From the NCBI RefSeq assembly GCF_003781945.1, contig NZ_RJJW01000001.1, positions 267,921 through 331,920 of the forward strand: a stretch of 64,000 bases of DNA. The letters run 5' to 3'. Below the pieces are notes generated by a model that saw nothing but the letters and a program-made list of their open reading frames with translations, did no database searches and was not told the origin of the DNA. This DNA is from Halorubrum sp. CSM-61 (GTDB lineage: Archaea > Halobacteriota > Halobacteria > Halobacteriales > Haloferacaceae). Positions 8,186-51,822 of this stretch are shown one piece after another (position 1 is the first letter of the stretch; each line of letters starts with the position of its first letter). Made by a program: the position numbers and the translations under genes.

Positions 8186-9487
8186 GGCTCTGTTGAAGCC
8201 CTCAATAGGAGATATGTTCTGATCCTCTGTAGTCAATAGAAGGTAAGGTCAGAAGACATATACCAATACCGTCGGAAGCAAGACAACATGACAAAGCCCT
8301 CCCGAAGGCAGGTTCTTTCGGCCCTCTGTACGGGTAGTGGCGTCCTCCTCGCCGGCTGTACGGCGGCACCAAAAGCGTCGAACGACAAGAACGAAACCGC
8401 GACGACGGAAGGGGACGGTGAAACAACACCACCCGAATCTAACCAATCGGTTCCGAATTTCCCCGAGAACACCACCTCGAATGCGTGCCCACTGTTTGAT
8501 AGTACGGAACAGGTTGTCTGCTACGAGGCGGTCGATCCCGAAGCGATTCCAATCGTACTCGTTCCAGAGACCCAGTCAGTCCAACCGGATCAACCGGTTG
8601 GGTTCACGCTTCGGAATCGGAGTGAACAGCGGTTCGAGACCAACCACTACCACTGGCAACTGTACAAGCGCGTGGACGGCGACTGGCACTACATCGCGCC
8701 TGAGCACTGGCCGGAGCCGCTAACGCCGCTGGAGGCCGGCGACGAACACACGTGGACCGTAACGGTAGCAACCGATCGCGTTAGTGACGGGGATTCCATC
8801 GAACACGTAGAGGGGACAGAATCGCTCACGCTCGCCGGTCTCGGTGGCGGTCACTACGCGTTTGGGACCGACGGATGGTTCGCGGCCGCCTCCTACGAGG
8901 AGAGCATCGCACTCGCAACGGGGTTCGAGTTGAACGCCGATCAGCTACAGCTGACGCCGACGGCGGCGATCTCCGAGACGGAGTGGGACGGTGAAACGCT
9001 CGTCGCGCGTTCGACGCGCGGCGAATCAGACGGCGAAGATGACCAGCCGGACAAGTTCGTCCTCGAACGCGTCGACGGTTCCGAGACCGACGCAGAACGA
9101 GTCATCGCCGAGCAGGTCGTCCGCAACGACCAATTGCGCGACAGTATCGCACTGAGCCGGAGACACGACACCGATCGAGTCCAACTTGAGGAGTTCAGCA
9201 GTTCGATTCCCCCATTCGGGCTCCAAGAGACCCGCACGTACGAGTTCGAAGGCAACCGCTATCGAGTGACAGTAAGCGCAGGAGAATCGTCGTAGTGTTA
9301 GTCCTGAGCAATCTGCAGGTACAAACCGATTTACTTAGATCGGGATGTTGACCAATGAGGCACTGTGTTCCACGAGGACTTACGAATCGCTCAGTACAGG
9401 CGAAGCACAGATCGCTCAGTAAGCATCTCTCATCGACCGGCTGTTTCAGATGAGGATCTATCTGAAGAAGAGGATTTCAACAGAGCC
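8186..9487. mobile_element. Non-autonomous TIR-bounded module carrying one lipoprotein gene
   Basis: The ends are inverted repeats: 8186-8203 reads GGCTCTGTTGAAGCCCTC and the complement of 9470-9487 matches it at 16 of 18 positions. The bases outside are ggttgttt (8178-8185) and gattgttt (9488-9495), an 8-bp target repeat with one mismatch. IS6- and IS1595-type elements make 8-bp target duplications, and I recall GGCTCTGTTGAA ends from haloarchaeal IS elements; which family is uncertain. No transposase lies inside: the only gene is the lipoprotein at 8288-9295. An 11-bp direct repeat (atcgctcagta at about 9386 and 9411) lies near the right end. Local GC is lower than in the neighbours. Confidence 0.65.
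8288..9295 (+). CDS. Tat-exported lipoprotein with Ig-like region, unknown function
   Basis: A 335-residue protein. The N-terminus has a twin-arginine motif (SRRQVLSAL) and a lipobox LAGC with Cys24, so it should be folded before export and lipid-anchored outside. A Thr/Glu/Asn-rich linker follows (about 25-70). Residues 95-165 (QPVGFTLRNRSEQRF, then WQLYKRVDGDWHYIAP) resemble bacterial Ig-like or BsuPI-like domains. I do not recognise the full family. A TATA box (acatatac, about 8257) lies about 27 bp before ATG, inside the TIR-bounded module, so the gene moves with its own promoter. Codon use is less GC-rich than in flanking genes, a sign of transfer. Confidence 0.8.
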   Translation: MTKPSRRQVLSALCTGSGVLLAGCTAAPKASNDKNETATTEGDGETTPPESNQSVPNFPENTTSNACPLFDSTEQVVCYEAVDPEAIPIVLVPETQSVQPDQPVGFTLRNRSEQRFETNHYHWQLYKRVDGDWHYIAPEHWPEPLTPLEAGDEHTWTVTVATDRVSDGDSIEHVEGTESLTLAGLGGGHYAFGTDGWFAAASYEESIALATGFELNADQLQLTPTAAISETEWDGETLVARSTRGESDGEDDQPDKFVLERVDGSETDAERVIAEQVVRNDQLRDSIALSRRHDTDRVQLEEFSSSIPPFGLQETRTYEFEGNRYRVTVSAGESS

Positions 9488-9489
9488 GA

Positions 9490-9800
9490 TTGTTTATAAA
9501 CTAACACGGTGTGGCCGGCGCGTGCCTTCGAGGCCGCCCCGCGGCCGAGAAGCACGCGCGAGGGAGTCGGTGGTCCGGAGCGAAGCGGAGGACCACCGAC
9601 GAGGCTGGGGAGGCGTGAGGTGCGGGGCGGTCGCTGTCGGGTGGGACTCGAAGGGGCAGCCGCGAGGCGGGCGCAGGTGACGCAAGGACCGCAGGGAACG
9701 AGCGGAGCGAGTGACCGAGGACCGCAGCGAGCGTGCGCCCGCCTCGCGGCTGGGGCTTCGGTGGTGTTCAGTCCTGCAGCAATAGATGCGATTTATGAGC
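9490..9800 (+). ncRNA. Structured RNA element, copy 1 (one tail box)
   Basis: First of three related non-coding elements. A TATA box (tttataaa, 9493-9500) lies about 20 bp before the conserved ggcgcgtgcc. Stem 1 pairs 9519-9528 with 9549-9557. Stem 2 has perfect 11-bp arms (9566-9576 and 9590-9600). A GAGGCTGGGGAGG box and a GGGACTCGAAGGGGCAG box follow. Stem 3 has perfect 19-bp arms (9657-9675 and 9734-9752). One tail box (GGCTGGGGCTTCGGTGGTGT, from 9749) ends it. Arms differ from copies 2 and 3 but stay paired. Open frames across it are not conserved as proteins. The RNA identity is inferred; I know no named family for it. Confidence 0.6.
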
Positions 9801-23992: not shown

Positions 23993-24108
23993 ACCGAGAT
24001 AGCGCGCGGCGGCGATTATAAACGGGTCGGAACGCGAGCGATACCGGGAGTAGGTATTGCAGATCGGTGGCGGCGAGACCGTACTTAAACGAACTGTGAG
24101 CGGCAGCG

Positions 24109-24460
24109 ACGATCACTTATAGAGTGCCGTACGGTGGCGCGTGCCTCCGAGCGGCCGACAGGCCGCGAGGAGTACGCGCGAGGGACGCGGCGACCGAAGG
24201 GAGCCGCGAGGCTGGGGAGGTGTGAGGCTGCGGTGCCGTGCGGTGCGGGTGGACTCAAAGGGGCAGCCGCGAGGCCGACGCAGGCGACGTAAGCACCGCA
24301 GCGAAGGAGCGATAGCGACTGAGCGAGGAGCACAGCGAGCGTGCGTCGGCCTCGCGGCTGGGGCTTTGTAGGTCTTGGCCGTCGATCTGCAGTCAACCGC
24401 CTATAACCGAGCGGCTGGGGCTTTGTAGGTCTTGGCCGCAGAGCCGTCGATCACGGAGAG
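24109..24460 (+). ncRNA. Structured RNA element, copy 2 (two tail boxes)
   Basis: Same architecture as the copy at 9490. It opens with 'gatcacttatag' (24111-24122), close to the start of the third copy. Stem 1 (cgcgtgcctcc with ggagtacgcg, about 24139-24179) needs a G-U pair, sensible only in RNA from this strand. Stem 2 pairs 24186-24191 with 24203-24208. Stem 3 has perfect 19-bp arms (24264-24282 and 24342-24360), with several bases changed on both sides relative to copy 1. Two tail boxes (GGCTGGGGCTTTGTAGGTCT at about 24356 and 24413) repeat with a 57-bp period. No protein-coding signal. Confidence 0.6.
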
Positions 24461-51332: not shown

Positions 51333-51404
51333 GACTGACGTATTGATTTTTGTGCGTTCTCTGTGGAATACCGTGTACGGCGAGCGTTCAGCGCGTACTT
51401 ATAA

Positions 51405-51822
51405 GTGAACTCCGGTGACTCTGCGGTGAAGACCTCCAAAGCCCCAGCCGCTCGGCTGTACGTGATCGACGATTCCGCGGAGAACACCTCCAAAGCCCCA
51501 GCCGCTCGGCTGTACGTGATCGACGATTCCGCGGAGAACACCTCCAAAGCCCCAGCCGCGAGGACTCGAAGGGCTCGCTGCGGTCCTCGGTCGCTCGCAG
51601 CGCTCGCTCCCTGTGGTCCTTGCATCGCCCGTCTTCGTCCTCGCGACTGCCCCTTTGAGTCCCACCCGACCGCACAGCACCGCAGCCTCACGCCTCCCCA
51701 GCCTCGCGGTTCGCGCTCTGCGAGCGCTCACCGCGTCCCTCGCGCGTGCTCCTCGCGGCCGCCTTCGGCGGCCACTCGGAGGCACGCGCCGCCGCTGCCG
51801 GTTTATAAGTGATTGTCGCTGG
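51405..51822 (-). ncRNA. Structured RNA element, copy 3 (three tail boxes, inverted)
   Basis: Same family as the copies at 9490 and 24109, read on the minus strand. It starts from a TATA (51802-51809; complement cacttataaacc) and folds into stem 1 (cgcgtgcctcc with ggagcacgcg), stem 2 (51705-51710 with 51730-51735) and stem 3 (51553-51565 with 51637-51649), the last with one G-U pair. Three tail boxes follow at 51537-51560, 51483-51506 and 51429-51452, spaced exactly 54 bp; two units are identical. The open frame across them repeats an 18-residue unit and is most likely spurious. Confidence 0.6.

Follow-up and report, generated by a model that had tools for sequence, protein, structure and literature searches.

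In Streptococcus pneumoniae, BOX elements are folded, modular intergenic repeats present in about 100 copies, one module of which varies in tandem. They are over-represented between convergent genes, open frames run through their modules, and the predicted RNA folds show few pairs between the variable module and the remainder (PMC3049150). BrickBuilt of Porphyromonas gingivalis is made of 23-nt units without spacers and has 19 copies in one species (PMC4596501). REP sequences are 20-40 bp long with GTAG or CGTC tags (PMC3733652). As for haloarchaea, many short transposase-free mobile repeats (MITEs, PATEs and SMRs) are known from Haloquadratum, many palindrome-bearing IS605 derivatives are carried by the group (PMC3119063), and expressed omega RNAs have been found (PMC12558985).

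Here we analysed a window of 64,000 nt from Halorubrum sp. CSM-61 that holds three copies of an intergenic element, and compared 60 sampled stretches of the same genome and 82 stretches of named genomes. The element is about 400 bp long. Its 5' part carries, in order, a TATA-like CTTATAAA, GCGGTGGCGCG, hairpins P2 and P3, and the internal box GAGGCTGGGGAGGCGTGAGG; its 3' part carries GGGACTCAAAGGGGCAG, a long arm, the tail box and a spacer that usually ends in TTATAA. A tail unit, that is, the conserved box plus its spacer, measures 45-75 nt, and the long hairpin P4 about 125 nt. Copy 3 sits downstream of hisF. The features are listed below, with scores from cmsearch for R1, a covariance model built from Halorubrum copies alone.

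9472..9487, plus strand: copy 1, IS6-type end GGATTTCAACAGAGCC, immediately upstream of the element
9643..9767, plus strand: copy 1, P4 hairpin including the single tail box (R1, 126.9 bits)
9746-9765, plus strand: copy 1, single tail box (2 mismatches)
24046..24067, plus strand: copy 2, inner terminal inverted repeat of the MITE-borne (class A) form
24250..24375, plus strand: copy 2, P4 hairpin including the first tail box (R1, 133.1 bits)
24354-24373, plus strand: copy 2, first tail box, 3' strand of P4
24411-24430, plus strand: copy 2, second tail box (period 57 bp)
51394..51407, minus strand: copy 3, TTATAA-like motif closing the last tail unit
51432-51451, minus strand: copy 3, third tail box, distal, with diverged spacer (period 54 bp)
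51486-51505, minus strand: copy 3, second tail box, an extra unit (period 54 bp)
51538..51663, minus strand: copy 3, P4 hairpin spanning GGGACTCAAAGGGGCAG (51647-51663) through the first tail box (R1, 138 bits, E 3.8e-25)
51540-51559, minus strand: copy 3, first (structural) tail box, 3' strand of P4
51686..51705, minus strand: copy 3, internal box GAGGCTGGGGAGGCGTGAGG, conserved in the family
51706..51735, minus strand: copy 3, hairpin P3 with covarying arms (limits approximate)
51736..51795, minus strand: copy 3, 5' strand of a possible P1 (GCGGCG) and hairpin P2
51800..51811, minus strand: copy 3, TATA-like CACTTATAAACC bordering the element on its 5' side, a putative promoter

The first-pass annotation had described the tail box as occurring once, twice and three times in the three copies, with periods of 57 bp in copy 2 and 54 bp in copy 3. 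The box positions bear this out, with six occurrences of ACCTCCAAAGCCCCAGCCGC on either strand where shuffled sequence expects 0, and the CCGC.GA and GTCGATCACG blocks said to be common to copies 2 and 3 are present. Two units of copy 3 had been called identical; units 1 and 2 indeed match at 53 bases but differ at the first (1/54), against 20 differences in 54 between units 2 and 3. The likeness of the tail box to the internal GGCTGGGGAGG box proved to be real but only partial. The box does not end the element, as had been thought: each unit continues into a spacer, usually closing with a TTATAA-like motif.

The first tail box and hairpin P4

The first tail box closes P4 as its 3' strand; it is not a free binding site, and no other tail box is needed for this hairpin. 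At the base of P4, CTCAAAG...CAGCCGC pairs with GCGGCTG...CTTTGGAG. The arm above consists of short covarying helices split by near-invariant purines, with some GA steps, and tandem G-A pairs may form between these helices. In an alignment of 39 copies, 99.5% of the P4 cells are paired compared with 86.8% after shuffling, and two-sided compensatory changes occur in 17 of 33 pairs. Such compensatory cells number 154 against 38 +/- 6 in shuffled alignments, a count reached by 0 of 500 shuffles, and the signal was never approached when the columns of this alignment were slid by one to three. With an alignment-free test of the first ten P4 pairs, 95.5% were canonical, compared with 78.3% for shuffled partners (z 20).

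In the covariation table of the same 39 copies, about 36 G-U cells stand against 3 A-C cells, an excess that speaks for a sense strand folded on itself rather than for a palindrome at work in duplex DNA. Both marks of a structured RNA, compensatory changes and sense-strand wobble pairs, are therefore found in P4. The folded molecule would presumably be a sense-strand RNA, or else single-stranded DNA.

The consensus fold energy of 55 cores was -178, compared with -93 +/- 7 in column-shuffled alignments, and the arms of P3 covary across copies (z 14.6). The closing pair of P1 (GCGGTG/CACCGC) is conserved, yet its covariation was not above that of shuffles. At two loci (L024 and L160), the inner segment of the P4 arm runs in the opposite orientation to that of the other copies, as if recombination between both arms had flipped it.

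The extra boxes behave differently from the first one. In elements that have at least two boxes, the six-base stem segment just before a tail box is paired with the 5' arm of the same element in 95% of cells for the first box and in 53% for the second and third; before the second box, positions 3-4 of this segment are paired in only 2%. The extra boxes in Halorubrum carry a fixed GAGC prefix, which mismatches the element-specific arm.

Extra boxes at orthologous loci

It had been proposed from the window alone that the unit is a true tandem repeat, and that random decay of box number without a common register in other genomes would speak against it. When tail units were counted in other genomes, including other genera, we found 1 to 6 boxes in a conserved register; thus the tandem repeat stands, although distal copies do decay. 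The neighbouring spacers are near-identical copies, which distinguishes the tail from a CRISPR array with its identical repeats and unrelated spacers.

The decay is polar. Mean mismatches are 0.06-0.09 in the body-proximal box of the own-genome and named sets and reach about 1.8 in later boxes. The first box is better kept than the last in 22 versus 1 cases of the own genome and 38 versus 1 of the named genomes, two sets that were selected by exact boxes and so favour intact ones, and in 8 versus 0 cases at the hisF locus, where loci were taken without that selection. Among the extra units of many arrays, the box GGCTGGGGCTTTGGAGG is kept better than the spacers; this is partly due to the selection of loci by exact boxes, with some function being possible.

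Of 29 other Halorubrum species sampled at the hisF locus, 17 have the element in place. It is oriented against hisF and forms arrays of 1-4 boxes with periods of 51, 57, 69 and others; cut-down remnants of the element and empty sites are seen in further species. Two loci (L171 and L162) show precise-looking internal deletions, which remove all or most of the element body and join the TATA-like start to the tail box. The last unit is common to several species. Standing alone as a single box, it is intact or almost intact (L159, L168 and L180; L152 with 2 changes), and it is usually degenerate as an extra (L154, L158, L160, L161 and L169), with L155 and L157 as exceptions. Fourteen further orthologous locus pairs differ in box number, unit length or both. 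Because unit number differs at orthologous sites, the array turns over at fixed sites. Orthologous loci with 1-4 tail units are a ready test set for the growth of a structured repeat.

We favour reading the extra boxes as a minisatellite formed from the 3' end of the element. We think it probable that one tail box closes P4, that the extra boxes are 3'-end reiterations decaying outward, and that box number is mostly neutral. The extra units are tandem reiterations of the 3' end (box, spacer and TTATAA), and the array would gain and lose units beside the body by unequal recombination or slippage, together with gene conversion between copies. Distal units would drift while turnover happens near the body, and box number would then be a by-product, mostly neutral, and not a dosage device. 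The pairing, the covariation, the polarity and the turnover at orthologous sites are the steps of this scheme that were directly observed.

Mobility and distribution

According to a simple coding-score gene caller, 150 of 157 copies are intergenic, and convergent placement is commonest (50 of the 124 copies with both neighbours called). Eighteen copies in the own genome have an inner left repeat GGGAGTGGGTAT, mostly with a matching ATACCCACTCCCG at the right (class A). Their inner ends read GGGAGT...ACTCCCG, and several of them are nested within longer GGCTCTGTTGAAAT-type ends. An end of the GGCTCTGTTGAAAT type adjoins an ORF that scores 148 bits against the model of IS6 transposases (cut-off 125), and the end upstream of copy 1, GGATTTCAACAGAGCC, matches ends found adjoining an IS6 transposase. 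From the sequence of their ends, class A copies look like IS6-derived MITEs carrying the hairpin core. Terminal inverted repeats related to a host transposon were found in class A only; most copies, including copies 1 and 3 of the window, are without them, and the copies without inner terminal repeats next to the core (class B) are the majority. An IS6 family transposase (L019:1675-2319, minus strand) lies directly beside one element copy, and its end resembles the outer ends of class A. The element may spread non-autonomously, with some copies carried inside an IS6-type MITE. It would be tolerated mainly between genes and, if functional, would act as a folded sense-strand RNA.

The own genome gave about 210 box-core matches, compared with 0 in the reversed control. 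The box was found in 49 of 52 genomes of the genus and almost nowhere outside it in exact form. Of 292 haloarchaeal genomes, 186 hold the 5' strand of P4, GGGACTSAAAGGGGC, and they represent 50 of 77 genera. Many have 1-2 copies per genome, and Halorubrum reaches about 140. R1 detected the window copies (127-138 bits) and copies of other families with up to 101 bits (E 7.5e-18), and its matches cover 20 of 28 genera of the family. Six distant, mostly partial plasmid matches led to copies in Halobaculum, Salinirubellus and Halorussus; the six plasmid records checked have no annotated feature beneath the element. The P4 strands of Halobaculum and Salinirubellus read GGGACTGAAAGGGGC (or close) and GGGGGCTTTCGAGG, where the C-G beside AAAG/CTTT at the P4 base is swapped to G-C, a compensatory change. 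The haloarchaeal copies searched against Rfam gave no match at E<=1, all hits being sub-threshold and due to chance, no exact box was found in viral contigs and no match among phage records, and the motif is not described in the open-access literature searched.

Some genera show variations of the plan. One genus has head-to-head element pairs with P4 5' strands about 46 bp apart and similar tails at each outer end (L199 and L201). Other genera (L187, L190, L193-L196, L202 and L203) have a variant P4 on the same GAAAG/CTTTC base, whose arm is unrelated and contains conserved CTAT...GGATATG or GAATATC segments. In one genus (L193, L194 and L196), short tandem repeats of the CGGTGACACAATCCACCG type lie upstream of the hairpin, so that the 5' side of the element can carry a small array of its own.

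Alternative readings and known repeats

The first-pass annotation had suggested that variable box number could set dosage, every box binding a protein or RNA and the number tuning the effect. The register held over 1-6 copies, the greater conservation of box than spacer within units and the tandem boxes of nine other genera agree with such a role. On the other hand, pairing already explains the first box, and the extra boxes ignore the stem and decay with distance from the hairpin. The last hisF unit, which is mostly intact in the structural role but mostly degenerate as an extra, also argues against dosage, as do the single box of 43 of 154 elements and the GGAGG part, which is not kept in other genera (GGGGGCTTTCTGG and GGGGGCTTTCACC). 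We therefore consider dosage unlikely. A Shine-Dalgarno mimic was dropped, since other genera replace the GGAGGTG of the box. The extra boxes retain the part complementary to the constant CAAAG..CAGCC, and in one genus (g30) about 12 nt of the arm recur in them, as would be the case if any extra box may take over from the first in pairing with the 5' strand of a switchable hairpin; given the mismatch of the fixed GAGC of the Halorubrum extras with the element-specific arm (the 2% pairing at positions 3-4), such a switch is very doubtful. The P4 hairpin might also be the end of an IS200/IS605-type element (omega RNA or PATE) that TnpA/TnpB mobilise, as palindrome-bearing IS605 derivatives are numerous in haloarchaea (PMC3119063) and haloarchaeal omega RNAs are expressed (PMC12558985). 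However, the hairpin lies within 1.5 kb of only 2 of 18 TnpB/Y1 loci of the own genome, a background level, as about 2 are expected from the density of 139 P4-strand matches in 3.7 Mb, and the ends of class A are of IS6 type, which makes this origin extremely improbable.

The bias of unit length towards triplets poses a concrete puzzle. In three Halorubrum sets, the length is divisible by three in 42/46, 143/146 and 16/16 cases (201/208 in total), and in nine other genera the same holds for 43 of 58 listed periods and 13 of 19 genus-by-period classes (p 0.0019), although shared descent reduces the independent events behind all these counts. In 27 of 30 other-genus loci fetched, the P4 5' strand lies upstream of the tandem boxes. 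Neutral reiteration gives no explanation for the bias, which counts against our preferred reading of the extra boxes as decaying 3'-end copies. If a ribosome reads the tail in an open frame (AAGALEVF...) through the units, their lengths must be 3n; this frame is the best by codon-position composition, mildly coding-like, and has few internal stops. Against it, close unit pairs change at codon positions 1/2/3 in 44/63/68 cases with no third-position excess, and 34 of 129 units (26% of 57-nt units) end with a stop in the best frame. The distance between the P4 5' strand and the box is evenly spread modulo 3, so no frame enters from upstream, and inspection by eye revealed no conserved start codon. 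As codon-position entropy, stops, substitutions and composition were weak or mixed, coding was rejected as the main reading; in view of the 3n lengths it is kept as a quite improbable rival. A further possibility, which we raise tentatively and hold to be rather improbable, is an unnamed structured RNA spread over the class Halobacteria, with a long purine-rich hairpin that functions in the cell and a 3' end reiterated three nucleotides at a time, owing to a tail that is read or handled in triplets; if true, its copies per genome would range from one to well over a hundred. The element might be a selfish repeat of great success, or else an RNA that has been overlooked.

Finally, the element shares with BOX a single tandem-variable module in a folded intergenic repeat, here in 1-6 boxes, as well as the convergent-gene placement, open frames through the modules and a variable module that barely pairs with the rest. 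This likeness rests on the plan and not on sequence relation. BOX varies the middle boxB (PMC3049150), whereas the haloarchaeal variable module is at the 3' end, and BOX is nearly confined to one species group, whereas the hairpin occurs in 50 of the 77 genera sampled. Like BrickBuilt, an intergenic MITE holding a tandem array of short units (PMC4596501), the element bears a tandem array, but its units are 45-75 nt long, consist of box plus spacer and are attached to a covarying hairpin. Class A copies, MITE-like with IS6-type ends, resemble the Haloquadratum repeats, unlike the class B majority without terminal inverted repeats, and association with an IS605 transposase is absent. High-copy intergenic hairpins are also known as REP/BIME palindromes (PMC3733652); the haloarchaeal hairpin differs in its length of about 125 nt within an element of about 400 bp and in its foot, the invariant GGGACTSAAAGGGGC without a GTAG or CGTC tag. 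In its plan, the element is most like BOX and BrickBuilt, though by module position, host and range it belongs to neither, and its class-wide spread and covariation are closer to those of an RNA family.
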